This document shows positions 37,809-63,207 of a stretch of DNA of 64,000 nucleotides, in pieces. The notes under the pieces are model-generated. The model was not told the DNA's origin and made no database searches. It saw nothing but the letters and a program-made list of their open reading frames with translations. The position numbers and the translations under genes are program-made. Positions within the stretch are counted from its first letter, which is position 1; each line of letters starts with the position of its first letter. Origin of the DNA: Prochlorococcus marinus CUG1415 (GTDB taxonomy: Bacteria > Cyanobacteriota > Cyanobacteriia > PCC-6307 > Cyanobiaceae); the NCBI RefSeq assembly GCF_017696015.1, contig NZ_JAAORL010000001.1:1-64000 (forward strand). The letters run 5' to 3'.

Positions 37809-37820
37809 TTTTTTCTTGTT

Positions 37821-39692: not shown

Positions 39693-39730
39693 GTTTTTAA
39701 TTTTTAGTCTTTATTAAAAAAGGAGGTTTT

Positions 39731-39898: not shown

Positions 39899-39944
39899 CC
39901 TAGTACGACTAAATTAAATTAGTCATAATAAGTCCTAATTTAAT

Positions 39945-39963: not shown

Positions 39964-40008
39964 CATATTAATAATCTTCAAATCTATTGATATAACTACG
40001 TTTTAGCG

Positions 40009-40035
40009 TTAAGTCGTATAGTCGCTATTGATTTC
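40009..40035 (-). repeat. Displaced argJ 3'-end copy (putative attachment core) 1
   Basis: Read on the minus strand these 27 bases encode E-I-N-S-D-Y-T-T-stop, matching the argJ terminus E-I-N-S-E-Y-T-T-stop at 42082-42108 with four base changes over 27. It is outside any gene. It is best explained as an att core left by integration into the argJ 3' end. Confidence 0.8.
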
Positions 40036-40085
40036 TATATAAAGATATAAATCAAGTTATAACTGGAATCTCAAGGATTTAACTA

Positions 40086-40102
40086 GTGTCATATTGGTGT
40101 CA
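40086..40102 (+). repeat. 11-bp-phased repeat pair (GTGTCA/GTGTCA)
   Basis: GTGTCA at 40086-40091 and 40097-40102. This is the left arm-like site of the small cassette, 50 bp from the core at 40009-40035. It also resembles a bacterial Pho box, but its pairing with the site at 40564 and its position favour a recombination role. Confidence 0.75.
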
Positions 40103-40131
40103 GAAAGATAAGATAAGTAGTAAATAATTTA

Positions 40132-40542
40132 ATGATGATGTTAAAAATAAATAATTTACCGTGTGTTTTATATATATTTTTCTTTTTCTCATTCAATTCA
40201 AGTGCTTACTCAAAAGAGTTTCTTTTGACTTGTCTCAACCCACAAAATAATAATTTTCAGACCACCTATAAAATTAAAGATGATTTACTTAGTCGAATCC
40301 TAGGTAAATCAGTTTTTCATGTCAGTTCTTATGACCCTTTAAGAGATAAAAAATTCGTTGTTAATAAGTATGAAAAAGTTATAAATTTCAAAAATAAAAA
40401 AATTACCACAACCATATCTTCTAATAATAGGCGAATCATAAACTTTAAAATATATGATCTTGAAAATAAAAACTACACCCAAAGCGGTCATTATTTAAAT
40501 GATTCCATCAAACCATTTTCGCAATATTTTTCTTGTTTTTAA
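40132..40542 (+). CDS. Secreted hypothetical protein, sole cargo of the small cassette
   Basis: The 136-residue frame starts ATG-ATG-ATG; the third ATG (40138) is also possible. It has a strong signal peptide (LPCVLYIFFFFSFNSSAYS, expected cleavage near residue 28). The mature part is basic, beta-rich by pattern, and has two cysteines (LLTCLNPQN and the C-terminal SCF) that could form a disulfide. No family recognised. It lies exactly between two phased repeat pairs and two argJ-like cores. Probably exported. Confidence 0.62.
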   Translation: MMMLKINNLPCVLYIFFFFSFNSSAYSKEFLLTCLNPQNNNFQTTYKIKDDLLSRILGKSVFHVSSYDPLRDKKFVVNKYEKVINFKNKKITTTISSNNRRIINFKIYDLENKNYTQSGHYLNDSIKPFSQYFSCF

Positions 40543-40563
40543 AGAAAATTATTAAATTTATTA

Positions 40564-40581
40564 CTGTCATATTAGCGTCAT
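40564..40581 (+). repeat. 11-bp-phased repeat pair (CTGTCAT/GCGTCAT)
   Basis: CTGTCAT (40564-40570) and GCGTCAT (40575-40581) have an 11 bp period. They lie 48 bp before the argJ-like core at 40630. This is the right arm-like site of the small cassette. Confidence 0.75.
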
Positions 40582-40629
40582 ATGAATTATCAAAACACTG
40601 ACTTCAGTTGTGCCGCAGCGGATCTAGAC

Positions 40630-40656
40630 TTATGTAGTATATTCGCTATTTATATA
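40630..40656 (-). repeat. Displaced argJ 3'-end copy (putative attachment core) 2
   Basis: On the minus strand these bases encode Y-I-N-S-E-Y-T-T-stop. The 20 bp between 40634 and 40653 match argJ at 19 positions. It forms the boundary between the 0.62-kb cassette and the next accessory block. Confidence 0.85.
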
Positions 40657-40756
40657 TACTAATTTTGCTAAACCCCCTATAGAGTGTTTTTTTCTTTAAT
40701 TGAAGAAATCCATTATGTTTAATATCTAGTAAAAGAATAAAATTTAAAATGAAATA

Positions 40757-41428
40757 CTAAATGCAATAACCATTTTTATTGTAATCAAGATGAATATCAT
40801 GAGTCCATCCAGACTGACTTAGAAGCGAAAAATTACATGGCAAATTATTTTTTTCTAGGCTCTCACATATAGAAATAAATACTTCGCAATCCCGCTGAAT
40901 TCCAATCGCAATTTCAGAATTAATTCTCTTAATATTTTTAGTCTGAGAAGATTCGATAAAATCAACAATTGAATTTTTTATGTATAACAATGTATTGATA
41001 CATTCCTTCGGGTCATGCCATTGGGGATTTTTTGAGTCTTCATAAAAATAAGAAAACCTCCTAATTCCTTTCGGTAAGGATATAGATTCAATTAATTGAA
41101 TATTATTTAGCAAGAAAAAACCTGCTGAAAAATCTGTAAATACATTTATTGTTTTAGAAAAATCAGAAAGGTACAAACTTCTATTAGTACGAACGACTAT
41201 TCTTTCATATTCGCCTCTATATTCCTCTAAAAAAATTTGAAAAAACCAGTAAATAACTAAGCAAGAAACTGGTAATCCAACTACTAATTGCCCTATAGAA
41301 AGTGCAGACAAATAAGCAAAAGTCAATATAATTACTGCCATAAAAGAAGCAATTAGTAATATAGGATTCATTAGAGCACAAATAATTCTTATAGTTCTTC
41401 TTCTATGCTTATTAAGAGGATGTATCAC
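40757..41428 (-). CDS. Membrane-anchored hypothetical protein
   Basis: The 223-residue protein has two N-terminal transmembrane helices (about 14-38, ALMNPILLIASFMAVIILTF, and 44-66, IGQLVVGLPVSCLVIYWFFQ) followed by a soluble domain of about 150 residues with several cysteines. No family recognised. It is 38 bp downstream of the gene at 41467 on the same strand, so the two are probably one transcription unit. Cargo of the accessory block adjoining argJ. Confidence 0.6.
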   Translation of the reverse strand: MIHPLNKHRRRTIRIICALMNPILLIASFMAVIILTFAYLSALSIGQLVVGLPVSCLVIYWFFQIFLEEYRGEYERIVVRTNRSLYLSDFSKTINVFTDFSAGFFLLNNIQLIESISLPKGIRRFSYFYEDSKNPQWHDPKECINTLLYIKNSIVDFIESSQTKNIKRINSEIAIGIQRDCEVFISICESLEKNNLPCNFSLLSQSGWTHDIHLDYNKNGYCI

Positions 41429-41466
41429 TTTATTACTTGAAAGTTTTTTATATATTAATCAAATAA

Positions 41467-41871
41467 TCAATCTTGCTTATATATATCCTCACATCCAGTA
41501 GTTCCTTTAGGGCATAGATGACAATTAGGTCCATCTGGTCCAGGCGGATTACAACCGCCGGTTGGGTCATAAAAAGAGTTAAACGTAAAAGTAACCATAG
41601 CAATAATAATCCAAAACAAATGAGGATATATAACTGAATATTTAAAAGTTTTTATTTGATTTTTTCTCGAATTGATACTAAAAATCTTTACCAGAGCAAA
41701 GAAGAGAATAACTATTACTAGTACATAAAGTAAAAAAAAATCTATCGAGGGTATCCACAAATTAATGTAAATAGTAAAAACAAGCAGAAAATAAGGAATG
41801 GTAATTCCTAACAGAAAAAAAAAGAAATATTTAATAAATCTTTGTATCCTTAAATGAATAGATTTACTCAC
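41467..41871 (-). CDS. Small polytopic membrane protein with Cys/Pro/Gly-rich tail
   Basis: The 134-residue protein has three hydrophobic helices (about 13-34, 42-63 and 82-100). They are followed by a loop GGCNPPGPDGPNCHLCPKGT with four cysteines over about 20 residues, which could bind a metal or form disulfides. Probably transcribed with the gene at 40757. No family recognised. It may be part of a paired membrane system of unknown purpose. Confidence 0.6.
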   Translation of the reverse strand: MSKSIHLRIQRFIKYFFFFLLGITIPYFLLVFTIYINLWIPSIDFFLLYVLVIVILFFALVKIFSINSRKNQIKTFKYSVIYPHLFWIIIAMVTFTFNSFYDPTGGCNPPGPDGPNCHLCPKGTTGCEDIYKQD

Positions 41872-42015
41872 TACAAAGCCTTTTTATAATTTGATTTGAT
41901 TTATCTAAAAAATATAAATTAATTATCTCTGAATATTAATCAAAAAATAATGTTCTTATGTTTTGTAACATTGCATAATATCAAAAAATAACTTTAAAAA
42001 TTAAAAAAAAATCAA

Positions 42016-42033
42016 GTGGTATTTTAGTGGTAT
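42016..42033 (+). repeat. 11-bp-phased repeat pair (GTGGTAT/GTGGTAT)
   Basis: GTGGTAT at 42016-42022 and 42027-42033. The pair ends 48 bp before the argJ stop at 42082, the same distance as in the cassette at 40564-40630. Proposed arm site of the element adjoining native argJ; no matching left pair was found after 40656. Confidence 0.75.
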
Positions 42034-42081
42034 CTTGATTTTTATAATGCTCAAATGCATTGCTATAACTGGGGTTTTAGG

Positions 42082-43344
42082 TTAGGTGGTATATTCGCTA
42101 TTTATTTCAACATACTTTTTAGAAAGATCACATCCCCAAGCTGTCCCTTTCGATTCGCCAGAATTTAGATTGATCATAATTTTTACAATATCATCCACTA
42201 AATATGCACCATTCATTTTGGACTTAATATAGTCGGTAACTTTTTTCGAATCATATTGATTTAACTTACCCTGTTCCAAAATCTGATCATTACCTATATA
42301 CAAGTCAACGTCATTTAGGTTGAAATGAACCCCAGAATTACCTGCAGCAGAAATGATTCTTCCCCAATTAGGATCACACCCATGTATCGCAGTTTTTACC
42401 AATGAGGAATTACATATTGATTTAGCAACCATAATTGCATCATCATTATTTCTTGCTCCTTCAACTAAAACTTCTAATAAACAATTTGCCCCCTCTCCAT
42501 CTCTCGCAATATTTTTTGCCAAGTTTTGACATACAATATCAATACCTTTTTGGATAATTGGCAAAAATCTTTTCTCAATTTTATTGCCTGAATTTATTGC
42601 AACGAAAGAATCGTTTGTACTTGTTTCTCCATCAACTGATATTGCGTTAAAAGATTTTTTAACCGCAATAGAAATTATTTGGTCCCATTCTTCTTTCTCA
42701 ATGCCGGCATCACAGGTTAGGAAAGCAAGCATTGTGGCCATATTGGGATAAATCATTCCTGATCCTTTTGCCAACCCTGCTATTTTTATCTTTCTACCTT
42801 CAATAATCGTCTCTATTAAAACTGTTTTCACAGTCAAATCAGTAGTTAAAATTGCTTCTGCTGCATTTTGAAAGTTATTAACTTTTAAATCAATCACTAA
42901 ATTCGGTAAATTTTTTACTAAATCTTTGATTTGTATAGGAACACCAATTACACCAGTTGAGCACATTAAAACTTCTTCTTCTTTTATTCCTAAAAGTTCT
43001 GCAATCTTTGAAGTAGCAATTTGAAAATGTTGAATTCCAAGATTTCCTGTACATGCATTTGCTTGACCAGAATTAATTAGTATTGCTCGTACAAAACCTG
43101 AAGATTGCTTAATCCTTTCCTCACAAATATCTATACAAGAAGCGCGAACTATTGATTGGGTAAACATCCCACTAAAAATACTTCCTTCTGGAGCGAGTAT
43201 AAGTGCTAAATCTTTCTTATTAGAAGCTTTTAATCCAGCTGAAATCCCAGCAAAAAGAAAACCGTTAGGTGTTTCATTACCTTCATCAACAAACGACCAA
43301 GTGGAATCAAACTGGCTCAATCTTTTTTTATCTTTGTAATTCAT
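42082..43344 (-). CDS. argJ: Glutamate N-acetyltransferase / amino-acid acetyltransferase
   Basis: The 420-residue bifunctional enzyme recycles the acetyl group in arginine synthesis. It self-cleaves at the threonine in the conserved KGSGMIYPNMATMLAFLTCD block (Thr near residue 203) to give alpha and beta chains. The protein ends E-I-N-S-E-Y-T-T, a strongly conserved ArgJ tail. The DNA of this tail (42082-42108) is repeated elsewhere in the window, consistent with use as an integration target that is restored after insertion. It is divergent from coaE with 53 bp between starts. Confidence 0.96.
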   Translation of the reverse strand: MNYKDKKRLSQFDSTWSFVDEGNETPNGFLFAGISAGLKASNKKDLALILAPEGSIFSGMFTQSIVRASCIDICEERIKQSSGFVRAILINSGQANACTGNLGIQHFQIATSKIAELLGIKEEEVLMCSTGVIGVPIQIKDLVKNLPNLVIDLKVNNFQNAAEAILTTDLTVKTVLIETIIEGRKIKIAGLAKGSGMIYPNMATMLAFLTCDAGIEKEEWDQIISIAVKKSFNAISVDGETSTNDSFVAINSGNKIEKRFLPIIQKGIDIVCQNLAKNIARDGEGANCLLEVLVEGARNNDDAIMVAKSICNSSLVKTAIHGCDPNWGRIISAAGNSGVHFNLNDVDLYIGNDQILEQGKLNQYDSKKVTDYIKSKMNGAYLVDDIVKIMINLNSGESKGTAWGCDLSKKYVEINSEYTT

Positions 43345-43397
43345 ACTAACTTCTCTTTAATACTAAAGAAATAGATAATTAGATTATTATTAACTAT

Positions 43398-44015
43398 ATG
43401 GATATTATTCACAAATTAAAAAATAACCAAAGAAGAATTGGTTTAACAGGAGGTATTGCAAGTGGCAAGACAACTATAACTAATTACATTAGAAAACATA
43501 AAAAAATTCCGATATTAGATGCAGATAATTTATCAAGAGAATTAATCAAACCAAACACATATGGATATCAAAAAATTTTAGACTATTTTGGAAATCAAAT
43601 AATTGATAATAAGAACAATTCAGAGAAAGCAATAAATAGAAAACTTTTAAGAAACATTATTTTTAAAAATTCAGAAAGTAAAGAATGGATTGAAAAACTA
43701 CTTCACCCCTTAATTAAAGAAAAAATGATTCACGAATGCAGTCAATTCAAAAATAATCAAACTATAGTAATGGTTATTCCATTATTATTTGAAGCAAAAT
43801 TTGAAGATATTTGCACTGAAATATGGTTAGTTAAATGTCCTAGAGAACTACAACAAAAAAGACTTATTACACGAGATAAAATTAGCGAAAAAGAAGCATT
43901 TGAAACCATAAATCTTCAATTAAGTTTTGAACAAAAAAACAAACTTTCAGATATTATTTTAGATAATTCAGATGATCAAAATAAATGGATCAATACTATA
44001 AGAGAACTTCTTTGA
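43398..44015 (+). CDS. coaE: Dephospho-CoA kinase
   Basis: The 205-residue kinase performs the last step of coenzyme A synthesis. The P loop GLTGGIASGKTT is near residue 15, DADNLSRELI follows, and the lid region contains QQKRLITRD. Length is typical. It is convergent with gatB with 4 bp between ends. Confidence 0.95.
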   Translation: MDIIHKLKNNQRRIGLTGGIASGKTTITNYIRKHKKIPILDADNLSRELIKPNTYGYQKILDYFGNQIIDNKNNSEKAINRKLLRNIIFKNSESKEWIEKLLHPLIKEKMIHECSQFKNNQTIVMVIPLLFEAKFEDICTEIWLVKCPRELQQKRLITRDKISEKEAFETINLQLSFEQKNKLSDIILDNSDDQNKWINTIRELL

Positions 44016-44019
44016 GCTT

Positions 44020-45492
44020 TTAGCTATTCAACTTTTCTGCAAGAAGTGTATTTGCAAGTTTAGGATCAGCCTTACCTTTCGTTCTTTTCATAAGTTGACC
44101 AACAAAAAAACCAAGTAATTTAGTTTTACCATTTCTAAATGCTTTAACTTCATTTGGATGTTCAGTAATCAGTTCATTGATTATTGGTAAAATACTTGAA
44201 GAATCAGATATCATAGCCAACCCTTTTTCTTCAACTAATTTTTCGGGAGAAATATTTTTTTGAATTAATTCAGGTAAAATTTCTTTTGCAATTTTTCCAC
44301 TAATAGTATTTTTTGAAATCATATTAATCATTTCAGCAAGATTCTCGGGACTAAGATTTAATTCACTAAAACTAAGTTTGTTTGCTTTTAAATAGCCCAC
44401 AAGATCACTTGTTACCCAATTTGAAGCTAGTTTGGCATCAGCACCATTAGTTACTGTTGCTTCAAAAAAATTTGCCATGTTAATTTCATCAGAAATTACC
44501 CTTGCATCATATGCAGATAACCCAAATTCACTTACATATTTATTTCTTTTCTTTGCAGGTAGTTCTGGTAGTTCTTTAAACCATATTTGTTTTTGGGCTT
44601 GTGTTATTTCAATTGGTCCTAAGTCAGGATCAGGGAAATATCTATAGTCACTACTACCTTCTTTTAGTCTCATACTTTTTGTTAATTGCTTAGCTTCATC
44701 CCATAATCTTGTTTCTTGGAAAATTTCTCCTCCATTTTCATAAACTTCTATTTGTCTGGCTATTTCATAATCACAAGCCTTTTGAATTGCAGAAAATGAA
44801 TTCATATTCTTAATTTCCACTTTGGTACCAAAAGGAGCATTAGGTCCTTTTCTCACTGAAATATTGACATCACATCTTAATGAACCCTCCTGCATATTTC
44901 CATCTGATACTCCTAGATATCTAACTGTTCTTCTAATCTCAGAAGCATATTCAGATGCCTCTTTACCTGTTCTAATATCTGGTTTACTTACAATTTCACA
45001 AAGCGCTATTCCAGCACGATTGTAATCAACTAAGGAATACTTAGAACCAGCCAATCTGTCACTGCCTGAATGAACTAATTTACCGGCGTCTTCTTCCATA
45101 TGTAGCCTTTCTATACCAATTTTTTTAATATAAGATTTTTTGTCTTTTTCTATTATTTCAACTTCTAGCCAGCCATTCTCAGCTAGTGGTTCATCAAATT
45201 GTGAAATTTGATAATTTTTGGGCAGATCAGGATAAAAATATTGTTTTCTATCAAATTTACAATGTTCTGCAACATTTAAATTTAATGCCAAAGAAGTTTT
45301 TACAGCGTACTCAAGAACAGTCTCATTCAAAACTGGAAGTGTTCCTGGTAACCCACAAACTACAGGATCTATATGTGTATTAGGTGCATCACCAAAAGCT
45401 GTTGACGCAGATGTAAATATTTTACTTTTCGTATTAAGCTGTACATGAGTTTCCAATCCAATCACAGCTTCCCAAGATTCCAAATTTTTCAT
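44020..45492 (-). CDS. gatB: Aspartyl/glutamyl-tRNA amidotransferase subunit B
   Basis: The frame is open from 45549, but the ATG at 45492 (MKNLESWEAVIGLETHVQLN) matches the universal GatB start, giving 490 residues. The amidotransferase corrects misacylated Glu-tRNA(Gln) and Asp-tRNA(Asn). Visible blocks are HVQLNTKSKIF, YFYPDLPKNYQISQFD, EEDAGKLVHS, DYNRAGIALCEIVSKPD and the tRNA-sensing YqeY tail ending in FVGQLMKRTKGKADPKL. Confidence 0.96.
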   Translation of the reverse strand: MKNLESWEAVIGLETHVQLNTKSKIFTSASTAFGDAPNTHIDPVVCGLPGTLPVLNETVLEYAVKTSLALNLNVAEHCKFDRKQYFYPDLPKNYQISQFDEPLAENGWLEVEIIEKDKKSYIKKIGIERLHMEEDAGKLVHSGSDRLAGSKYSLVDYNRAGIALCEIVSKPDIRTGKEASEYASEIRRTVRYLGVSDGNMQEGSLRCDVNISVRKGPNAPFGTKVEIKNMNSFSAIQKACDYEIARQIEVYENGGEIFQETRLWDEAKQLTKSMRLKEGSSDYRYFPDPDLGPIEITQAQKQIWFKELPELPAKKRNKYVSEFGLSAYDARVISDEINMANFFEATVTNGADAKLASNWVTSDLVGYLKANKLSFSELNLSPENLAEMINMISKNTISGKIAKEILPELIQKNISPEKLVEEKGLAMISDSSSILPIINELITEHPNEVKAFRNGKTKLLGFFVGQLMKRTKGKADPKLANTLLAEKLNS

Positions 45493-45571
45493 TATTAAAA
45501 GTTTCTTTATTAATATTATTGGATATAAGGTAAAAGAGGACCAAAACACAAATAAAAATATTAAATATTAA

Positions 45572-46681
45572 ATGACTCAAGAAACAAAAAATTCAATTTT
45601 AATTATTGGCGGTGGACTAATAGGGTTATCTATTGCTTATGAATTTGCTAGAAATAATTTCAAAGTTTTAGTTTTAAGCAAAAACAGAAATGAATCAGCT
45701 GGATTTGTAGCTGCAGGAATGTTAGCTACTCATTCCGAAGGGCTCAAAGAGGAATTACTAAAATTTGGACAAGAAAGCCAAAGTTTAATTCCAAAATGGA
45801 TAAAAAGTATTGAAGAAGATAGTAAGATGCAATGTGGTTTAAAAAAATGTGGAATAGTAGTTCCTTTCAAAAATAAAGAAGATCTTGAAAAATTTCCTAC
45901 TTATGAATATGGAAGGTATTTAAATCAAAAAGATCTTCAAACAGAAATTAATGGAATAAATTCTATTTGGAAACATGGTTTACTGTTTAAACAGGATGGT
46001 CAGATAGATAATCGAAGAAGACTGATGCGTGCTCTGGAGAGAGCATGCTCCTTGCATGGAGTCGAATTTCAAGAAGGATCAGAAGTCAAGGATTTGACAG
46101 TAGAAAAAAACAAAATTACTGGTGCAACAGTTTTATGTGCCACAGGGCAATTGAAAAAAATTAATTGTGAAAAAGCAATTCTATGCAGTGGTGCTTGGAG
46201 TAAAAAAATTTACAAAAAGATTCCAGTTTTTCCTGTAAAGGGACAAATGCTATCAATACAAGGTCCATCAAATTTTCTGAGGAGAGTTATTTTTGGGCCA
46301 AAAACCTATCTAGTGCCTCGTGATGATGGACTTATTATCGTTGGCGCAACAGTTGAAAAAGATTCAAAATTTAATCAGGGAAATACTCCGAATGGTATAA
46401 ATCAACTGCAAGAAGGTATTCGATCTTTATTACCTGAAGCCATTAATTGGCCACAAATGGAACATTGGTGGGGATTTAGACCTTGTACACCAGATTTCAA
46501 ACCAATACTAGGTAAATCTAAAATTGAAAATCTTTTTTTAGCTACTGGACATTATAGAAATGGGGTTTTATTTTCTGCAATAACAAGTGATCTTATTTTT
46601 AAATTAGTTCAAAATAAAAGTCTCAAAGAAATAGAAATAAGCTTTTTAGAAAAATTTAGTTTAGATAGATTTGAGATTTAA
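45572..46681 (+). CDS. thiO: FAD-dependent glycine oxidase ThiO / D-amino-acid oxidase family
   Basis: The 369-residue flavoprotein starts with an FAD-binding motif IIGGGLIGLSIAYEFARNN and has the C-terminal GHYRNGVLFSAITSD block typical of ThiO, which oxidises glycine to iminoglycine for thiazole synthesis. FVAAGMLATHSEG is also a ThiO-like segment. Cyanobacterial thiO is often fused to thiG; here it is not. Divergent from gatB with 79 bp, convergent with ndk. Confidence 0.87.
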   Translation: MTQETKNSILIIGGGLIGLSIAYEFARNNFKVLVLSKNRNESAGFVAAGMLATHSEGLKEELLKFGQESQSLIPKWIKSIEEDSKMQCGLKKCGIVVPFKNKEDLEKFPTYEYGRYLNQKDLQTEINGINSIWKHGLLFKQDGQIDNRRRLMRALERACSLHGVEFQEGSEVKDLTVEKNKITGATVLCATGQLKKINCEKAILCSGAWSKKIYKKIPVFPVKGQMLSIQGPSNFLRRVIFGPKTYLVPRDDGLIIVGATVEKDSKFNQGNTPNGINQLQEGIRSLLPEAINWPQMEHWWGFRPCTPDFKPILGKSKIENLFLATGHYRNGVLFSAITSDLIFKLVQNKSLKEIEISFLEKFSLDRFEI

Positions 46682-46684
46682 ATT

Positions 46685-47143
46685 TTAATTTTCAGATCGC
46701 CATTTCCAATCAGAAGTTTCCCACTCACATAATTCCTTTTCGTTAAACCATAGATTAATTTCAAATTTTGCTGTGTCTTCTCCATCAGAACCATGAATTA
46801 TATTCCTCCCAATATCAATAGCTAGATCCCCCCTAATTGTTCCAGGCTCTGCTTCTAGCGGTTTTGTTGCACCTATTAATTTTCTAGCACTCAAAATAAC
46901 CCCATCGCCTTCCCAAACCATGGCAACAACCGGACCACTTGAAATAAAATCAACTAAATCGCCAAAAAAAGGTCTTTCTTTATGTACTCCATAATGATTT
47001 TGGGCAAGATCTTTTGATGGGATTAATTGTTTTAAACCAACCAACTTAAATCCTTTTTTTTCAAATCTGCCAATAATCTCAGCAACATATCCTCTTTGCA
47101 CTCCGTCTGGTTTAATTGCAACAAAAGTTCTCTCTTTGGTCAT
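46685..47143 (-). CDS. ndk: Nucleoside diphosphate kinase
   Basis: The 152-residue kinase balances nucleoside triphosphate pools. It has [15 protein letters not shown] at the N-terminus and the catalytic histidine in [16 protein letters not shown] near residue 118. Length is standard. The start is separated from speA by a 122 bp divergent intergenic region. Confidence 0.97.
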
Positions 47144-47265
47144 TTAATTAATAATCACTCTATGTATATTCAACTTTTGGGTGGTAACTTGGCAAGTAAT
47201 CATTAAAATAAAAGATATTGTTTTGAGTTTTTTTCAAAAACATTTCTTAATTACTAAAACATAAA

Positions 47266-51857: not shown

Positions 51858-51962
51858 AAGAATACAAATTAAAGAAAAGCGCAATTTCGGTTATTTCGCA
51901 AAAATAATCACGCTGATTTATATTCTATATAACTAAAGTTAATTGATAAAGCGAATTATTCT

Positions 51963-53738: not shown

Positions 53739-53754
53739 AAAATAAATCTTTAAA

Positions 53755-55557: not shown

Positions 55558-55574
55558 ATCTATGTATCAAATGT

Positions 55575-56099: not shown

Positions 56100-56121
56100 A
56101 CTTTAAAACTAAAAATTAATA

Positions 56122-57912
56122 TCATTTTTTTTCATTCCAAACTTTTAAAATTTCTCTTGCCATAGGAAGTGCATGAACAGAGCCACCACCGGGAGTATTT
56201 TGTGCAAAAGCCACTACAAGTAACTCACTCTTTTCAAAAGGAGTAAAGCAAACAAACCAAGCATGATCTAAACCACCTTCGCCATCTTCAGCAGTTCCAG
56301 TTTTACCTGACACTGGAGGTAAATTCGAAACTCCATAATTAATTGATACTCCAGTACCTGACTCTACTACTTTCCTGAGACCGCGTTTTATCAACTGGAT
56401 ATTATTTGGATCAATGTCAATTTTAATACTTTTTGTTTCTGAAAGATTTACTTGACCTTTTTTAGCTAAATGGGGAGTCACCAGATAACCTCCATTTGCA
56501 ATCGCAGCATATGCTCTAGCTATTTGCATAGGAGTAACTTGTACAACAAATTGTCCAATAGACATACTCGCAATATCTTCGGGAACCCAAGGAGTTCTAC
56601 CTGGTTGGCCCCATCCTCTACCTTCTTTAGCCCATGCGCTACTAGCTACTAATCCTATATTTTCTTGTTCAGAAATTTCAATTCCAGATAAAGAATTAAA
56701 ACCAAGCTTTTTGGACACCTTATGAATTTCATCAACTCCTACACCATATCCGACTTGATAAAAAAATGTATTGCTTGAAACTCTTAAAGCATCTTCATAA
56801 CCTATAGCCCCAAAGCCTAAATCATTGTGTTCCCTAAAACATTGACTCCCATAAGTGATACATGGTTTTGTATCTAGAATAGTATCACTAGGAAATTTGC
56901 CACTTTCTAAGCCAGCTAAAGCAGTTACAATTTTCCAAACACTGCCTGGATCATAAGCATTTAATGCTCTATTAAAAAGAGGTTTTTCAGGAGAATTAAA
57001 TATCTTATTATATTCTTTTTCAGGCTTAAAATCCTTTGAAAAGAAATTCAAATCAAAAGTAGGCTTACTTGACATCGCTCTTATTGCACCATCTCTTGGA
57101 TCCATAACTATTATCGCTCCAGCTTTTTTGTCTTTAAGAACTTCATCAGCAACTAATTGCAAATTTATATCAATTGTCAATTCAATATCATTACCTTGTT
57201 GTGATCGTTTTATACCCAATGATCTTTGAAATTTGCCTAAAGAATTTACTTCAACCATTTCTCCTCCCCATTCACCTCTTATGAAATCTTCGTAAACATA
57301 TTCAATGCCAGTTCTCCCTATTAAGTCATTTAATTTATAACCCTTCTCAGATAAAAATTTATATTCTGCTTCAGTGATTGGCTGAGTATAACCAATTACA
57401 TGCGCAGCAACAGATTGATAAGGATAATTTCTAATTAATTTCGTCGCTATTTCAAAACTAAATAAATTATCTTCATTTTCCTTAAATTTTATTAATTGAT
57501 CTACATTTAAATCATCAAGAATAGTTACTGCAAGTTTTTGATTTTTTAGGCCCTCATAATATTTTTTTTGAATTAAATTACTATCAATATTTAATAAATG
57601 AGCAATACTTAATTTATGCTGTGCCCAATTGCTTTTATTTACAGATTGAGGCTTTATTATTAAAGAATATTTAACTCTACTATCTGCTAAAACATAACCA
57701 TTTTTATCCAATATTCTTCCGCGTATTGGTTGAGAAGCAATAAGTCTAATCCTATTCTCATCAGACATTTTTTTAAAAGATTCATAATTGAAAAGTTGTA
57801 AAAAAATTAATCTAAATAAAATCAATAAAAACGAAATAGAAGAAAAAATAAATAGGACTAAAGGTTGTCTCTTTAATGAAATACGTTTTGTATTAGGGCT
57901 GGTTTTTATCAA
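56122..57912 (-). CDS. mrdA: Penicillin-binding protein 2 (elongation transpeptidase)
   Basis: The 596-residue class B PBP has an N-terminal membrane anchor (PLVLFIFSSISFLLILFRLI, about 18-37), a dimerisation domain with RGRILDKNGYVLAD, and a transpeptidase domain with the catalytic serine in PGSVWKI near residue 324, SSNTF and KTGTAEDG near 537. These are the SxxK, SxN and KTG motifs. It crosslinks peptidoglycan during cell elongation. Probably co-transcribed with the 47-residue gene just upstream. Confidence 0.92.
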   Translation of the reverse strand: MIKTSPNTKRISLKRQPLVLFIFSSISFLLILFRLIFLQLFNYESFKKMSDENRIRLIASQPIRGRILDKNGYVLADSRVKYSLIIKPQSVNKSNWAQHKLSIAHLLNIDSNLIQKKYYEGLKNQKLAVTILDDLNVDQLIKFKENEDNLFSFEIATKLIRNYPYQSVAAHVIGYTQPITEAEYKFLSEKGYKLNDLIGRTGIEYVYEDFIRGEWGGEMVEVNSLGKFQRSLGIKRSQQGNDIELTIDINLQLVADEVLKDKKAGAIIVMDPRDGAIRAMSSKPTFDLNFFSKDFKPEKEYNKIFNSPEKPLFNRALNAYDPGSVWKIVTALAGLESGKFPSDTILDTKPCITYGSQCFREHNDLGFGAIGYEDALRVSSNTFFYQVGYGVGVDEIHKVSKKLGFNSLSGIEISEQENIGLVASSAWAKEGRGWGQPGRTPWVPEDIASMSIGQFVVQVTPMQIARAYAAIANGGYLVTPHLAKKGQVNLSETKSIKIDIDPNNIQLIKRGLRKVVESGTGVSINYGVSNLPPVSGKTGTAEDGEGGLDHAWFVCFTPFEKSELLVVAFAQNTPGGGSVHALPMAREILKVWNEKK

Positions 57913-57923
57913 AAATTTGAAAT

Positions 57924-58067
57924 TTATTTAAATATTGTTTTTTCCAAGAAAGAAATTGTTGTTTTTATCTCTTTAAGTCTAGTTATTAAAGTTTTGTAAT
58001 CAATATCTTCAGTATTAAGATTAAACTCATCATTTTCAATATCTTTTGAAGTCAAATTTTCACTCAT
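57924..58067 (-). CDS. Small hypothetical protein upstream of PBP2, 47 residues
   Basis: An ATG at 58067 opens a 48-codon frame (MSENLTSKDIENDEFNLNTE..., ending TISFLEKTIFK) whose stop lies 11 bp before the PBP2 start on the same strand. The acidic N-terminus followed by a basic amphipathic helix (about 27-47) looks like a real small protein rather than chance. Function unknown; could couple to PBP2 expression. Confidence 0.5.
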   Translation of the reverse strand: MSENLTSKDIENDEFNLNTEDIDYKTLITRLKEIKTTISFLEKTIFK

Positions 58068-58176
58068 AAAACTTATACTTTGTAAAGTCATTATTCCAGT
58101 TAATACAATCTTAAATAAAAAATTTATTTTTTCAAAATAATATTAAGTCCCATACTGATAAAATATCATAAAAAAT

Positions 58177-58785
58177 TTAATTTAATTGATCTATATTTTG
58201 TTCAAAATAAGGATTACAACTATTCTTTGATATTCCTAAAGACCATCCAATGAATGAGGCAATAAATATCGTTACAATGAATGGCACAATAGCTTGTTGA
58301 GTATTTTCAAGACTAAACCAATCCCTCCAACTACTAAAAAATCTTTCTCTTTGAAATTTTCTTTTTTCATTTTCTAATAATCTCGCGTTTTTGGCGAAAG
58401 ATTTTGTAACCCACTTTTCGAAAGGAATCTTTTTTATGATCGCCATTTTTCTCTCAACTTCTAATAGCTGTCCGGAACTAAGATAAGGATGAAATGTACT
58501 TATCAATTCAAGAGTTTTTAAAAACATCTCAACAGTTGCATCTTTTATTAGCTTTTGCTCATGACTTAACTCAGCCCACTCTATTTCTGGATAAAAACGG
58601 TTCCTATTAGGATGAATTTGATCCTCTGACATTTGTCCTGGTTCTCGAAGCCATCTATTAGTATTTTCGTCAATCTTCCGCCAATACAAAAAAGGATTAA
58701 TAAAAATTGTTTTACCAGATACTTTGACTACATCTTGTTGAAGATGATTAGTTATCTTTCTTGCGGAATTTTTTGATGTTATCAA
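58177..58785 (-). CDS. Tail-anchored hypothetical protein
   Basis: The 202-residue protein is a soluble, Trp- and Arg-rich, helical domain (about 1-160) followed by one transmembrane helix near the C-terminus (AIVPFIVTIFIASFIGWSLG, about 164-183) and a short tail. It lies at the left edge of the second accessory region. It is 81 bp from the nuclease gene upstream on the same strand. No family recognised. Confidence 0.62.
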   Translation of the reverse strand: MITSKNSARKITNHLQQDVVKVSGKTIFINPFLYWRKIDENTNRWLREPGQMSEDQIHPNRNRFYPEIEWAELSHEQKLIKDATVEMFLKTLELISTFHPYLSSGQLLEVERKMAIIKKIPFEKWVTKSFAKNARLLENEKRKFQRERFFSSWRDWFSLENTQQAIVPFIVTIFIASFIGWSLGISKNSCNPYFEQNIDQLN

Positions 58786-58866
58786 AAGTCTAAATTAATA
58801 ATCTAATTAAAGATTATCTTTTATTTACTATTTTTTCAGAAATATCAAAACATTGTTCTATGATTA

Positions 58867-59580
58867 TTAATTTATCGATAATTGCCAACGCCTCTTTAAA
58901 TAATTACAATATTCGCAATTGAATGAAGGTTTGGGAAAAATATCCGAACGTAATAAATTGACCGTATCAATTATCTTATGTTCTACCCATGCTGTAGAAC
59001 ACTCTAATCTAATTAGATGTACATCAAAATTTAATTGATTATTAAAAACCTCTTCATTTTTCTTCCCATTAAAATATAAAAGATAAGCTTCTTTTGCAAC
59101 TTTAAAACCATTTTTTTTAAATAACCACTGATACATTTCCAATTGTCTCTTATAAGCTTTTGCATATTCGTATTTATTAAAAGTCTCGGACCAATCAAAA
59201 TTATTTCTTGATGTTGCTTTTACATCAACAATAATGAGATCACCATTTTTTTTCTGCCAAATATCATCGACAGCACCGCCAAAATCATAATGATGTTCAA
59301 TTGACTTATACCTTATCCCTTTAAAATTATTTCTCCAACGCTCTAAATTTTTGTGTTTTAAAGGAACAGCATCAATACAATGTTCAATCAATAAAGGATG
59401 AGGCTCCTGTATTCTTCTGTAATGATCAAATTCATTTTTACATAAATTATCTACAGCTATATTTAAGGTAAATGGTAATGATGGTGGTTTTATTTGATAT
59501 TTTTTATCAAGTACACAACACCTTGGACAACTAAGATATTTTTCGACAGTAGATCGACTTAATTTAATAATCTCGCTCAT
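58867..59580 (-). CDS. Cas4/RecB-like PD-(D/E)XK nuclease with Fe-S cysteines (copy 2)
   Basis: The 237-residue protein is a paralogue of the gene at 38345. It has Cys18 and Cys21 (CPRCC), GGAVDDIW with Asp105, VDVKA with Asp119 and Lys121, the QxxxY helix with Gln146 and Tyr150, and Cys222 and Cys225 (CEYC). All nuclease and iron-sulfur cluster residues are retained. The N-terminus is 29 residues shorter before the first cysteine pair. It may process DNA ends in repair or mobile-element biology; no CRISPR genes are present. Confidence 0.83.
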   Translation of the reverse strand: MSEIIKLSRSTVEKYLSCPRCCVLDKKYQIKPPSLPFTLNIAVDNLCKNEFDHYRRIQEPHPLLIEHCIDAVPLKHKNLERWRNNFKGIRYKSIEHHYDFGGAVDDIWQKKNGDLIIVDVKATSRNNFDWSETFNKYEYAKAYKRQLEMYQWLFKKNGFKVAKEAYLLYFNGKKNEEVFNNQLNFDVHLIRLECSTAWVEHKIIDTVNLLRSDIFPKPSFNCEYCNYLKRRWQLSIN

Positions 59581-59703
59581 CTCGTTTTAAATCTCATTTA
59601 AAAAATTGAATACTTAAAAAAATAGTCTTAAATTTTTTAAAAAATTTGATAACTTACTCCTTCTCAATAGTAACACCAATAATTACAAATCAAAACACAG
59701 TCA

Positions 59704-59880
59704 TTGCAACAAGTTTGAGTATATTATAATGCATGTTTTTACACATGACCTTCTTCTAAAGTCCAGAACGAAGTTTGTACTCTTTTTGGGACTAATAAAT
59801 AGTTCCTTGCAAAGGGATTATTGTTATGACAAGCGTCTGGGAAACATAAATCACAGAACAATCCAGTGACAATCTGAAAA
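59704..59880 (+). other. Unexplained intergenic stretch with a strong TATAAT; candidate transcript
   Basis: The 447 bp between the nuclease and the TPR gene (59581-60027) has no convincing ORF. A consensus TATAAT (59725-59730) has TTGCAA 15 bp upstream (59704-59709). Downstream are small inverted repeats, for example CCTT-GCA-AAGG near 59804-59814 and GTCC...GGGAC near 59761-59792. It could be the 5' leader of the TPR gene or a separate small RNA. No terminator was found. Confidence 0.35.
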
Positions 59881-60027
59881 AGCATTCAAATTCAAAACTT
59901 TAGTTTTATTCTATGAGTGACTTTTATGGATAATCGATAATAGTTGAATAAACAATATTACTTAATCTACATTATTTAAATTTTTATAAAAACTATAATT
60001 TTATAATTAAAACAATTAAGGTTAAAT

Positions 60028-61179
60028 ATGAGAGGTTTTGGAGAAAATTATAAATCTAATAAGAAAACTAATAAGAAAACTAATAAGAAAACTAATAAGA
60101 AAACCAAACCTTCTAAAGAACAATTTATTAATCAGGCTATCAATTTCCATGTGCAAGGAAAAATCTCTGAAGCAACGAAATATTATCAATATTGCCTAGA
60201 TCAAGGTTTTCAAGATTATAGAGTTTTTTCTAATTATGGAGTAATTTTGAGTGAGCTTGGCAAATTAAAAGAAGCAGAAATCTTATACCGCAAAGCAATT
60301 GAAATTAATCCTAATTACGCAGAAGCGCATTCCAATCTGGGAATCATTTTGAGTAAGCTTGGCAAATTAAAAGAAGCAGAAATCTTATACCGCAAAGCAA
60401 TTGAAATTAATCCTAATTACGCAGAAGCGCATTCCAATCTGGGAATCATTTTGAGTAAGCTTGGCAAATTAAAAGAAGCAGAAATCTTATACCGCAAAGC
60501 AATTGAAATTAATCCTAATTACGCAGAAGCGCATTCCAATCTGGGAATCATTTTAAAAGATCTTGGTAAATCAAAAGAAGCAGAAATCTTATACCGCAAG
60601 GCAATTGAAATTAATCCTAATTATGCACAGGCATATTCCAATCTGGGAAACATTTTAAAAGATCTTGGTAAATTAAAAGAAGCAGAAATCTTATACCGCA
60701 AAGCAATTGAAATTAATCCTAATTACGCAGAAGCGCATTCCAATCTGGGAAACATTTTAAAAGATCTTGGTAAATCAAAAGAAGCAGAAATCTTATACCG
60801 CAAAGCAATTGAAATTAATCCTAATTACGCACAGGCATATTCCAATCTGGGAATCATTTTGAGTGAGCTTGGCAAATTAAAAGAAGCAGAAATTCCTTGC
60901 CGCAAAGCAATTGAAATTGATCCTAATTACGCAGAAGCGCATTCCAATCTGGGAATAATATTAAAAGGTCTTGGCAAATTAAAAGAAGCAGAAATCTTAT
61001 ATCGCAAGGCAATTGAAATTAATCCTAATTACGCAGAAGCATATTTAAGCCTGGGAACCATATTGAGAGATCTTGGTAAATCAAAAGAAGCAGAATTATG
61101 TTCAGAAAAAATTATGTCTATTAGGAAATGGTCTATTTTGGGTTCATATAGTTTTAATCGTGCGATGAAATTAGATTGA
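60028..61179 (+). CDS. Tetratricopeptide repeat protein with nearly identical repeats
   Basis: The 383-residue protein starts with a basic low-complexity region of NKKT units (12 bp DNA repeats, residues about 10-25). About nine consecutive 34-residue TPRs of consensus AEAHSNLGIILxxLGKLKEA-EILYRKAIEINPNY follow. The 102 bp units are almost identical in DNA, so they expanded recently or are kept alike by gene conversion. It has no signal peptide. Its end overlaps the convergent SET-domain gene by 26 bp. Likely a protein-binding scaffold; partner unknown. Confidence 0.85.
   Translation: MRGFGENYKSNKKTNKKTNKKTNKKTKPSKEQFINQAINFHVQGKISEATKYYQYCLDQGFQDYRVFSNYGVILSELGKLKEAEILYRKAIEINPNYAEAHSNLGIILSKLGKLKEAEILYRKAIEINPNYAEAHSNLGIILSKLGKLKEAEILYRKAIEINPNYAEAHSNLGIILKDLGKSKEAEILYRKAIEINPNYAQAYSNLGNILKDLGKLKEAEILYRKAIEINPNYAEAHSNLGNILKDLGKSKEAEILYRKAIEINPNYAQAYSNLGIILSELGKLKEAEIPCRKAIEIDPNYAEAHSNLGIILKGLGKLKEAEILYRKAIEINPNYAEAYLSLGTILRDLGKSKEAELCSEKIMSIRKWSILGSYSFNRAMKLD
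60282..61080 (+). repeat. Array of 102-bp TPR-coding tandem repeats
   Basis: About eight head-to-tail 102 bp units, each centred on the string coding EAEILYRKAIEINPNY, differ by only a few bases. Variation is concentrated in two short windows (LSKLGKL / LKDLGKS / LSELGKL). Copy number is likely unstable and assemblies may collapse it. Confidence 0.88.
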
Positions 61180-62149
61180 TTTCATAAAGCATAAGTTTAG
61201 TCAATGTATCTGAGACTTCGTTTTTTATTAACTGAGATTCATCTAAAATTTTTTTTCTAATTGAAATATTTAATTGAAATATTTTTAATAAAAGATCTTG
61301 AGAAATATTAATATGACCTATCTTCCTAATCATCTGATCAAAATAATCATATGGCAATCTAGGGTGATTGACGTCAGCAATAGGCAAACCCTCTAAAATG
61401 ATTTTATTACCAGATCTTTCTATTTTCATAGAATCATTTTTAAGAGCGAGTCCCTTACAAGAAATATAAATGCCAAGATCTTCTATTTTTATTGAAAAAG
61501 GTATAGAAAATACTATGGTTTCTTCAGAAAAAAAACCATAAGAAAAAAAACGATTTAATGAACTCGTATCGCTATATGAAAATCTTATCTCACAGTTGGA
61601 AGCTGGATAATTTGGAGTGCTTACTCCTTCCTTATTAAGGATAAAATTCAAAGATCTTACTTTATGATTGACGAGTTCCCAGATAGGAGCAATAAAAATA
61701 GTCTTCCCAAATGTAACTCCTCTAGCATTCAAGAATTGCTTTTTAACAATTTCATTCCAATCGCCTCTATGCCTAGCATCTAAATCAACTAAAGCATATT
61801 TATTAATTAATTCCTTGATATTTGAATTGAACAAACTTAATCCTTTCTCAAACAATTCTGTTGTTTCTTTCCCACCCGATCCCCACGAAAAATTATCTTG
61901 GTAGAAATTAAAAAAATCTCTAATTTCCTGATTATATTCCTTATCTTTTTTAATTCTTAATTTATTATCTTCTAAATCAATATCGTCTTTTTTGACCATT
62001 AATTTTGATGGAGTAAAAATTCTTGCTCTTATACTTGGATTAACAGGGAAAATACCTCTACCATATTCGCCTTCCTTTTGACATACATTATCTGCTATGC
62101 CGCCAAATCTACGAAATTCAGATAGTAAAAAATTCCAATTATCTTTCAT
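61154..62149 (-). CDS. SET-domain protein (putative protein-lysine methyltransferase)
   Basis: The 331-residue protein shows the split SET pattern of the Rubisco-LSMT/SETD class: N-terminal GRGIF (30-34) after an RRFGGIADNV start, IWELVNHKVRS (156-166) corresponding to the DxxNH core motif, and SYGFFSEE (203-210) corresponding to the catalytic YG turn. A helical C-terminal region (about 250-331) follows, as in substrate-binding domains of that class. The family uses S-adenosylmethionine to methylate lysines. Assignment is by motif only. Convergent with the TPR gene. Confidence 0.68.
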   Translation of the reverse strand: MKDNWNFLLSEFRRFGGIADNVCQKEGEYGRGIFPVNPSIRARIFTPSKLMVKKDDIDLEDNKLRIKKDKEYNQEIRDFFNFYQDNFSWGSGGKETTELFEKGLSLFNSNIKELINKYALVDLDARHRGDWNEIVKKQFLNARGVTFGKTIFIAPIWELVNHKVRSLNFILNKEGVSTPNYPASNCEIRFSYSDTSSLNRFFSYGFFSEETIVFSIPFSIKIEDLGIYISCKGLALKNDSMKIERSGNKIILEGLPIADVNHPRLPYDYFDQMIRKIGHINISQDLLLKIFQLNISIRKKILDESQLIKNEVSDTLTKLMLYEINLISSHD

Positions 62150-62310
62150 AAGAAATATAAACTTTCAAATAATCTAATTAGAAAATGAAAAAAATTATAT
62201 AAATTTTGCAACTTTTTTAAAATTTTGTCTCGCTCATAAAAGTTGAATATTTAGATACTACTTTTGATGATCCTCCTATTAACTTGAAATTCATAGAGTA
62301 TTATTACCCG

Positions 62311-62462
62311 AGTAAAAGTGCTTTGTGCTTGTTACGAATATCTTGTTGTATTCATTTGACTTAAAAATAATACAGGAGTCAAAAGCATTTCATCGACTTT
62401 GTGGACAGCGAGGTGCATGCGACTCGAAGAGGGTAAACAAATGCTCTCTTATTTTATTTTTA
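62311..62462 (+). ncRNA. Putative structured small RNA, copy B (plus strand)
   Basis: This is the inverted homologue of 39294-39441. About 44 bp around the promoter, including the -10 TATTAT (62299-62304), are identical between copies. The terminator stem is AGAGGGTA/TGCTCTCT (62428-62435 with 62442-62449), in which changes relative to copy A leave G-U pairs, and the T-rich tail follows. The AAGTGCTTT/AAAGCATTT helix also keeps pairing by wobble. Pairing-preserving changes support a functional folded RNA. Confidence 0.7.
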
Positions 62463-62552
62463 GTAAACTTTCCCTGATTTTCTGCGTTAAATTTTATTGA
62501 TATTAAGCATTTTGGATATTAATGGTTAGATTTATCAAAATAGGAAAAATTT

Positions 62553-62846
62553 ATGTTTGTAAGTATTGATTTATGCTTAGTCCCTATTGGAGTTGGAACT
62601 TCTCTATCTCCCTATATAAAAGAGTGTCTTGAAGTTATCAAAAATGAAGGACTTAACTATCAATTAGGAGCGAATGGAACTGCAATAGAGGGAGATTGGG
62701 ATAAAGTATTTGAATGTGTTAAAAAGTGCCATAAAAAAATTCATTCAAAAGGTGCTCCTAGAATTTATACAACCATGAAAGTAAATACTAGAACTGATAA
62801 AGAACAAAAATTCTCAGATAAAGTAAAAAGTGTATTAGACAAATAA
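62553..62846 (+). CDS. Thiamine-binding-like protein of the UPF0045/MTH1187 (DUF77) family
   Basis: The 97-residue protein matches the MTH1187/YkoF-like small fold: MFVSIDLCLVPIGVGTSLSP at the start, NYQLGANGTAIEGDWDKVFE in the middle and RIYTTMKVNTRTDK at the end. Family members form tetramers and some bind thiamine or its pyrimidine part. Its stop overlaps the next start by one base. The surrounding structured RNA and att-like repeats suggest it is cargo of an accessory element. Confidence 0.87.
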   Translation: MFVSIDLCLVPIGVGTSLSPYIKECLEVIKNEGLNYQLGANGTAIEGDWDKVFECVKKCHKKIHSKGAPRIYTTMKVNTRTDKEQKFSDKVKSVLDK

Positions 62847-62974
62847 TGGAAAAAGAACGAAATTATGATGATGATGGGTTAGATTCATCCGATGAGTATT
62901 TCAGAAAGAAGAAAAAAGATAAGGATGAGGATATTTACTTTCCAACAGAAGAATCTGAACCACCTCATTATTAA
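62846..62974 (+). CDS. Small acidic/basic hypothetical protein, 42 residues
   Basis: An ATG overlapping the stop of the thiamine-binding-like gene (TAATG) opens a 43-codon frame starting MEKERNYDDDGLDSSDEYFR and ending EESEPPHY. The overlap implies coupled translation. The composition is highly charged and likely disordered. No family recognised. Confidence 0.55.
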   Translation: MEKERNYDDDGLDSSDEYFRKKKKDKDEDIYFPTEESEPPHY

Positions 62975-63101
62975 AAGCATTAGAAACTAAGAAATTCTGT
63001 TTCAACAACCTTGAAGTATAAAAAACAAAATTTACCAACAAAAAATCATGGCAATATCACACATTTTGGTCTAATTTATTTTTTTCAGAAAGCATGTTCT
63101 G

Positions 63102-63120
63102 TTGCTTACCGTTTGCTTAC
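63102..63120 (-). repeat. 11-bp-phased repeat pair (GTAAGC type, inverted)
   Basis: On the plus strand TTGCTTAC lies at 63102-63109 and 63113-63120, an 11 bp period. Its reverse complement matches the pair at 39945 at 18 of 20 positions. It ends 60 bp before the argJ-like core at 63181. Proposed arm site of the other end of the same element. Confidence 0.8.
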
Positions 63121-63180
63121 AGTTGTATTCATTCAAAGAACTTAGTTATTGCAGTCAATTATATTGATTATCTTAATATA

Positions 63181-63207
63181 GAAATGAATAGCGAATATAC
63201 TACTTAA
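63181..63207 (+). repeat. Displaced argJ 3'-end copy (putative attachment core) 3
   Basis: These 27 bases encode E-M-N-S-E-Y-T-T-stop on the plus strand and match the argJ terminus (42082-42108, minus strand) at 24 of 27 positions. It lies 21 kb from argJ and in inverted orientation. It overlaps the stop codon of the small gene at 63200. Confidence 0.85.

Follow-up and report, generated by a model that had tools for sequence, protein, structure and literature searches.

How the variable genes of Prochlorococcus move is an open question. Few photosynthetic organisms match this genus in abundance, and few plasmids or prophages are known from it. The question takes a concrete form in the first 64,000 nucleotides of contig NZ_JAAORL010000001.1 of Prochlorococcus marinus CUG1415 (this whole 64-kb stretch is the window hereafter), where the argJ tail, the last 27 bases of the gene, occurs in four copies (42082-42108, 40630-40656, 40009-40035, and 63181-63207). 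An earlier note on the window had listed these four 27-mers with their translations, both of which are confirmed from the window sequence, and had proposed serial integration at the 3' end of argJ. Why should the end of a gene be present four times? After comparison with relatives, we consider it very likely that the argJ 3' end is the attachment site (attB) for serial tyrosine-recombinase elements carrying replacement tails, and that this explains the arrangement as a whole. Judged from sequence, argJ is a real, general, and nearly base-exact serial integration site, for which a candidate integrase clade is identified in relatives. The first features needed are these.

42082..43344, minus strand: argJ, the target; the putative argJ-fused attachment site is formed by the terminal 27 bases, 42082-42108.
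40630..40656, minus strand: displaced tail copy 2, inner; TATATAAATAGCGAATATACTACATAA in argJ sense.
40009..40035, minus strand: displaced tail copy 3, inner; GAAATCAATAGCGACTATACGACTTAA.
63181..63207, plus strand: displaced tail copy 4, terminal; it has the native right half CTACTTAA, adjoins the conserved facing gene, and is inverted relative to the others.
63200..63460, minus strand: conserved gene directly facing argJ in empty-site strains, the right flank of the site; no Pfam match.

An 18-mer core of the tail, with up to three mismatches allowed, has exactly four matches in the window; shuffled sequences give a mean of 0.11, and none of 100 shuffles reaches four. The earlier note had made scatter of the motif over the genome a test of its proposal. 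The motif is not scattered: the whole 1.73-Mb genome contains two extra core matches, both with three mismatches, versus five for the reversed-pattern control. Because the extra matches are so few, below that control, the copies can be said to cluster at argJ. Chance or genome-wide scatter of the tails was rejected by the shuffles, the genome count, and a strand-specificity control. The view that all displaced copies lie outside genes stands except for the fourth, the final 8 nt of which are inside the 3' end of the minus-strand open reading frame (ORF) 63200-63460. This copy sits 21 kb from argJ, on its other side and in inverted orientation, which fits an inversion rather than a separate target. 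The right half of the argJ tail in the window is CCACCTAA; since it differs from the native CTACTTAA, it is read as cassette-derived.

The relatives show what the site looks like when nothing is inserted. A search of named genomes with ArgJ yielded 447 relatives, and the best 80, Prochlorococcus loci closest to the window argJ, were analyzed: 36 are empty, 40 are filled (inserts of 240-9066 bp), and four lie at a contig edge. MIT 9302 (L043), for example, has an empty site and MIT 9314 (L105) a filled one. The gene facing argJ is a homolog of ORF 63200-63460 in all 76 loci with both flanks. A precise junction in empty-site strains, for which the earlier note had proposed to look, is seen in the 36 empty loci, where the distance from the argJ stop to the facing gene, measured by match ends, is -4 nt in 13 (an overlap like that of copy 4 in the window), +23 in 21, and +29 in 2. 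Among the 40 filled loci, 27 have a terminal core with at most two mismatches adjoining the facing gene. Recurrence of the tail is strand-specific, argJ tails (up to six mismatches) recurring 32 times on the same strand versus 0 on the opposite strand, in 24 of the 80 loci. For the tails of five neighboring genes, used as controls (380 gene-locus tests), there is one same-strand recurrence and there are four opposite-strand ones. With the letters reversed, there are 3 matches for argJ, 16 for thiO, 1 for speA, and none for the remaining three genes. A genus-wide 16-mer scan, which was loose, with the matches listed near control level, served only to locate positions.

The two halves of the tail are distributed very differently. 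The native right half, CTACTT(A/G)A, is found on argJ in 36/36 empty loci and 1/40 filled loci, and on 24/27 terminal but 0/19 inner displaced copies; for filled argJ versus terminal copies, Fisher's test gives p = 7e-14. The left half, GAAATA, is present in 71/80 argJ genes versus 3/46 displaced copies. It follows that argJ bears the element's tail and that the old tail marks the far end, a distribution we read as an attL/attR signature.

The swap spares the protein. As the earlier note had supposed of a replacement tail, coding sense is preserved by synonymous tails, Y-T-T-stop being encoded by all 40 filled argJ genes as well as by 16 of the 19 inner and 19 of the 27 terminal copies. The entropies of the three codon positions in the 59 element-derived right halves are 0, 0, and 0.53 bits for Y, 0, 0.21, and 1.68 bits for the first T, 0.12, 0.25, and 1.94 bits for the second T, and 0.12, 0.76, and 0.98 bits over the stop codon. 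This excess at third positions has the form of a codon pattern. The displaced left halves, of which argJ has no need, vary more at codon 1 (1.24, 1.57, and 1.37 bits). The NSEYTT end is also found in the solved ornithine acetyltransferase 1vz6, which we take to be a Streptomyces protein. Synonymous tails are in this respect a clean natural record of coding selection on an attachment site. Some argJ genes (8/36 empty, 5/40 filled) encode the same serine by TCN, not AGC/AGT; these alleles alter the attachment block and leave the ArgJ protein unchanged. The serine-codon and GAA/GAG variants conflict on a narrower crossover point, perhaps owing to later recombination.

Which enzyme might act at this site? 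A profile made from two island recombinases (A3) was searched in 266 genus genomes at 1e-8 and matches three, in each case in an argJ island (L061, L094, and L126). The integrase starts 141 nt behind argJ in L061 and 178 nt behind it in L126, where a serine resolvase follows, and then a cassette with a YadA-type gene that matches slightly below the curated cut-off; in L094, it is at the far end of the island. A serine resolvase is present in two of these three elements (L061, L126). In the L126 assembly, argJ is in two reading frames (9466-10705), an error or a pseudogene.

A three-sequence profile (A4) matched 88 of 400 family genomes at 1e-4. The eight matches below 1e-100, from seven genomes of four other genera, are all at the argJ site. 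Of these, six start 116-136 nt behind argJ genes with 48-52% identity to that of the window, one takes second place in the same island (+6157), and one adjoins a tail copy where its contig ends. Displaced argJ tails with 3-4 mismatches are found downstream at +6011, +17551, +7468, and +6664 in these family loci. A fifth locus has a weak tail at +7762 (six mismatches) and another such match at +8571, and the sixth has none; with the pattern reversed, no locus gives a match. A maximum-likelihood tree was built from 34 integrases, L175 (in-frame stop) and L191 (ORF under the length cut) being left out, and in it the ten argJ-site members form one clade (100/100). All ten are at argJ or its tail copies, in five genera. 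The L094 integrase, although in an argJ island, is outside this clade on a long branch, its placement being flagged as unsure by the program. As for family assignments, the L061 and L094 integrases match PHROG integrase families, PF00589 is matched above the cut-off by L094 and below it by L166, and the SAM-like integrase domain is matched above the cut-off by L126 and L164 and below it by L061 and L166. The earlier proposal of serial integration at the argJ 3' end is therefore supported by empty sites, by exact terminal junctions in most filled sites, and by tail displacement, and also because the replacement tails are synonymous and a putative integrase clade is found at argJ in five genera.

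When the islands are split at core copies, 59 segments result, of which 46 are bounded by the core at both ends. These bounded cassettes measure 152-6493 bp (median 1615 bp), only four exceeding 4 kb. Their order can be read in three close relatives. L068, L076, and L105 have argJ genes that are 98.9-99.6% identical and a common distal cassette that is 97.8-99.3% identical, while their proximal cassettes are three unrelated ones (encoding a Z1-domain ATPase, a YadA-anchor protein, and a methyltransferase) joined at the same junction base. Insertion beside argJ therefore took place after the distal cassette was already in place. A tyrosine recombinase was recognized in only two of the 40 filled islands (L061 and L094), with at most one further PF00589 match among the rarer families.

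Most cassettes thus lack an integrase, yet many have structured ends. An arm test was applied to 45 of the 59 segments, 14 being dropped because the core was missing at one end or the segment was shorter than 200 bp. A 9-nt self-match of at least 8 at a period of 10-12 is present in 51% of left ends and 47% of right ends versus 3.6% in shuffles, and the period is 11 in 42 of the 44 cassette ends that pass. The arms of one cassette are matched, a left arm scoring 0.699 against its own right end and 0.603 against the right ends of others, which none of 10,000 permutations reaches. We distinguished the arm classes TGACAC, ACCACT, AACACT, CTTAC, and TGTGAT. These paired 11-bp repeats resemble integrase arm sites. 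Moreover, the motif GTnATnnCA is found in 25/45 right ends versus ~1 expected from plain letter shuffles, the usual distance from the core being 34 or 55 nt; among left ends, 8/45 have it. TGTGA(T/C) is present at the left end of all seven clade elements examined, and at both ends of five; among the 45 integrase-less cassettes, it is at both ends in 11 and at one end in five. When the L126 cassette is left out of the count, both ends carry it in 10/44, versus a shuffled mean of 0.53 and a maximum of 3 (100 shuffles). That clade elements and integrase-less cassettes have this repeat in common suggests mobilization in trans.

These observations fit the following scheme. An incoming circle would recombine with the 14-bp block AATAGCGAATATAC, which encodes part of the conserved ArgJ end, strand exchange presumably falling within the block. 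The element's tail would become the new, codon-synonymous argJ end and the old tail the element's far end. Later elements would insert at the argJ-fused copy, leaving the newest cassette nearest argJ and tail copies between cassettes. In clade elements, the integrase gene begins about 115-180 nt behind argJ, and most cassettes of the Prochlorococcus set, which are without an integrase, have the core at both ends, and often show paired 11-bp arms, would probably be moved in trans. Recent activity and the route between cells we infer.

In the window, the scheme would place three integrase-less cassettes behind argJ, the last of them split in two.

40657..42081, no strand assigned: cassette A, 1452 bp tail to tail; ORFs 41467-41871 (minus) and 40757-41428 (minus), no Pfam match.
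40036..40629, no strand assigned: cassette B, 621 bp; ORF 40132-40542 (plus), no Pfam match.
39500..40008, no strand assigned: cassette C, first part; small ORFs 39510-39692 (plus) and 39731-39898 (plus), and an arm-like pair GTAAGCAGACCGTAAGCAA at ~39945-39963.
62471..63180, no strand assigned: cassette C, second part, apparently split off by inversion; thiamine-binding-protein gene 62553-62846 (plus).
39280..39500, minus strand: copy 1 of a ~200-nt repeated structured element, at the left end of the putative inversion; RNA-like, with a terminator-like hairpin on the minus strand.
62271..62455, plus strand: copy 2 of the ~200-nt element, at the right end of the putative inversion; in inverse orientation, 88% identical.

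Arm-like pairs are present in all three cassettes: ATACCAC..ATACCAC at 42015-42035 in cassette A, pairs of the TGACAC class at both ends of cassette B (40562-40578 and 40084-40100), and, in the second part of cassette C, TTGCTTACCGTTTGCTTACAG at ~63101-63121. With the inversion undone, cassette C would measure about 1.5-1.7 kb, with arm pairs at both ends.

Why, then, does the fourth copy face the other way? The usual order in ten relatives is guaA (within the stretch in eight), island, PDDEXK, pbp2, ..., argJ, island or nothing, facing gene, and the inverted argJ-to-PDDEXK segment of the window occurs in none of the ten. The inversion, of ~23 kb, spans 39.3-62.4 kb of the window, and its ends are in the guaA and argJ islands. 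When it is undone, the tails at 42082, 40630, 40009, and 63181 stand in tandem, the native half last, at the facing gene. The inverted fourth copy is explained by this predicted rearrangement, which would have occurred between the ~200-nt copies in the guaA island and in cassette C and moved argJ, together with the first cassettes, away from the last tail. An assembly error is an unlikely source of the inversion, given 88% identity over ~200 nt. In relatives, the small ORF 39510 is found in opposite orientations in guaA versus argJ islands. The ~200-nt element itself is dispersed, with six genome matches including the query (the two in the window and those at G000:C1:634654, C1:134079, C2:120343, and C2:16636), the weaker ones partial, and a fold z of -3.4. 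Rfam gave nothing at gathering scores, with sub-threshold matches only. By its appearance, it may be a small RNA that cassettes carry and that has yet to be described. A TPR gene of the window (60028-61179) consists of 102-bp repeats that resemble one another, with 78-94% identity to the reference copy.

The design may not be restricted to argJ. The window contains traces of a second site, at guaA, in 36268-39300 and at 59654-59674.

34682..36268, plus strand: guaA, a candidate second 3'-end site of similar design; GGTTACACGT is found behind the gene at 36307, 36318, 36368, and 36379.
59654..59674, minus strand: degraded guaA-3'-end-like sequence before the PDDEXK gene 58867-59580, identified by eye against the empty site of G007.

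The latter has more than six mismatches to the window's own guaA tail. In eight genomes, guaA tail copies with up to six mismatches are found in the islands of four, on the same strand only, with reversed and shuffled controls at 0; three islands have none, and another of the eight genomes has an empty site. In two genomes, 73 and 76 nt separate such copies from the PDDEXK gene that follows, the empty-site spacing being 76 nt. Similarly, integrases are found 348-416 nt behind fdp1, a flavodiiron gene, in three genomes (L201, L202, and L203), where they form their own clade (99/98) in the tree of 34. Displaced fdp1 tails are present in two of the three, at +5800 (five mismatches) and +4775 (four mismatches), with none in L202. 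In sequence, guaA and fdp1 look like sister sites of argJ.

Several observations weigh against this account of argJ. With regard to the sample, the 80 loci are the closest of the 447 to the window argJ, and many are single-cell assemblies. The tail swap has an exception in L088, which is filled and retains the native half on argJ, and the coding contrast between left and right halves is not absolute, E-I-N still being read in 17/46 displaced left halves. A terminal core with at most two mismatches is absent in 13 of the 40 filled loci, several of which have the synonymous AACTCGG form or show decay. About half of the cassette ends fail the arm test, TGTGA(T/C) is at neither end in 29 of the 45 integrase-less cassettes, cassette A has an arm pair at one end only, with no clear pair at the far end, and the arm classes of the window cassettes (ATACCAC, TGACAC, and TTGCTTAC) differ from the TGTGAT class. 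The arms of the L094 element, TTGTTCACAG, merely resemble those of cassette C. As for the enzymes, the L061 and L126 integrases match PF00589 only below the curated cut-off (PHROG supports L061), and the argJ-integrase family is absent from the window's genome, whose two PF00589 matches lie elsewhere, one adjoining tRNA genes. Viral contigs contained no relatives of the argJ integrases and, with the stricter 20-mer, no attP. Two exact 17-mer matches in those contigs were read as chance, their ORFs being without argJ-like context, and a search of the phage collection with the L061 integrase yielded nothing.

The alternative that survives best, although we consider it doubtful, is that integration is ancient and that present strain differences arise mainly by homologous recombination between argJ and the facing gene, whole arrays being swapped. 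Of 17 homologous pairs, only 8 show a cassette identity above that of argJ, which is no systematic excess; this counts against our account and in favor of array swapping. Recent transfer, as judged from cassette-over-argJ identity, was accordingly not borne out. Array swapping also gains from the rarity of the argJ integrase in the genus (3/266) and from the synonymous tail alleles AACTCGG and AATAGCG, which are found in empty and filled loci alike. However, swapped arrays do not readily account for L068, L076, and L105, with near-identical argJ backgrounds, one distal cassette, and three proximal cassettes at the same base, nor for arm repeats often retained at both ends of integrase-less cassettes.

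It is a little less probable, and in our view unlikely, that the cassettes are tycheposons or their remnants at a new address. The earlier note had pointed to tycheposons as a parallel, and the likeness holds loosely: the organisms are the same, tyrosine recombinases occur in a few of the elements (two of the 40 filled islands), the islands carry cargo, and L061 and L126 have a serine resolvase, a feature reported with other picocyanobacterial integrases (PMC10187409). It does not extend to target or size. No tRNA gene was found by ARAGORN in the window, nor any in L126-L128 or the argJ integrase loci L164-L170, and the 46 bounded cassettes have a median of 1.6 kb versus the 4-200 kb quoted for tycheposons in PMC10872708, most argJ cassettes being far smaller.

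An integron-like array, in which a single array integrase stores promoterless cassettes, would account for stacked small cassettes, newest at a fixed end and mostly without an integrase, but is very improbable given that cassette genes are in both orientations, that many cassettes have phage-type paired arm repeats at both ends, and that the two integrases tested match PHROG families. Finally, the ends of argJ might resemble one another by chance or have been copied by unequal crossing-over; only the shortness of the common block (14 bp) speaks for this, and it can practically be dismissed in view of the 0.11 matches expected in the window, the 32 same-strand versus 0 opposite-strand recurrences with nearly none for five control genes, and the exact junctions, and it is contradicted by the comparison of empty and filled loci.

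Serial integration at the argJ 3' end being the preferred reading, what might it be for the cell? The commonest cargo of the argJ islands is a secreted-type protein family with a YadA-like anchor (cluster c0, 15 ORFs), which suggests surface variation. Among 85 island ORFs of at least 95 aa from 40 islands, YadA_anchor is matched by 14, TPR_1 by 9, Thiamine_BP by 6, PBP by 3, and PDDEXK_1 by 3 (counts from the 25 most frequent of 79 Pfam families); no relaxase or conjugation family is among these 25. In a broader reading, to which we give slightly less than even chances, argJ would be a docking point common to more than one integrase lineage, the argJ clade and the unrelated L094 type at the least, and a pool of arm-sorted, integrase-free mini-cassettes would supply it. 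Helpers would move any cassette with their arm repeats, and argJ, guaA, and fdp1 together would give picocyanobacteria an integron-like economy on core-gene 3' ends, in which replacement tails preserve the codons. Of the 76 resolvable loci, 40 are filled at a nearly base-exact site. Given named strains with empty and filled sites, candidate integrases, and arm repeats, cassette movement is open to direct test. Beyond what the earlier note had described are the inversion, the paired arms, the integrases of related genomes, and the comparable sites at guaA and fdp1.

How does the argJ site compare with known systems? The earlier note did not recognize argJ as a target from the literature, and the literature that we searched (titles and abstract starts, most subscription papers being outside the search) likewise names no argJ integration site. 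Staphylococcal cassette chromosome (SCC) elements, moved by Ccr large serine recombinases, are at rlmH, a target different from argJ; CcrB of SCCmec is itself a serine recombinase. The serial islands behind ssrA in Dehalococcoides are alike in lying behind one gene with 3'-end repeats between them, some without an integration module, whereas the target there is a tmRNA gene and the integrase, DsiB, is compared with CcrB of SCCmec (PMC3146451). Tycheposons are likewise picocyanobacterial islands with tyrosine recombinases but have tRNA targets and 4-200 kb, whereas argJ is a protein gene with cassettes of 0.15-6.5 kb (PMC10872708). In the additive islands of Methylophilaceae, with repeated tRNA-Lys 3' ends, gene-end copies recur at a variable island as they do here, but the target is a tRNA gene, hence no codon-preserving tail (PMC10872708). 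The novel picocyanobacterial integrases near tRNA-Phe and tRNA-Cys, with a small serine recombinase, resemble the elements here in having a tyrosine integrase and, for two of the three genus elements, a serine resolvase; their target differs from argJ (PMC10187409). Elements at the guaA 3' end also use the end of a protein gene as attB, and the guaA islands here are similar in design; unlike at argJ, stacked small cassettes are not mentioned in the guaA entries in the portion of PMC5704250 available.

The closest parallel is the tandem accretion of integrative and conjugative elements (ICE), integrative and mobilizable elements (IME), and cis-mobilizable elements (CIME) at gene 3' ends in Streptococcus and others (PMC5704250). 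There, too, tyrosine recombinases target protein genes at the 3' end, a direct repeat makes the gene whole again, and decayed elements retain attL/attR and stack when a newcomer inserts at the gene-end site (PMC5704250). Two marks of such accretion are found at argJ, namely a direct repeat with the target-gene end at each boundary and the gene restored, and, in L068, L076, and L105, the joining of new elements next to the gene. The argJ cassettes differ in being tiny (median 1.6 kb), in their target, in their population-wide codon-synonymous tails, and in the lack of a conjugation family among the 25 most frequent island Pfam families. Accretion at gene 3' ends is thus of a known kind; what is new, as far as our searches go, is the address, along with cassettes of minimal size, tails that preserve coding, and arms held in common.

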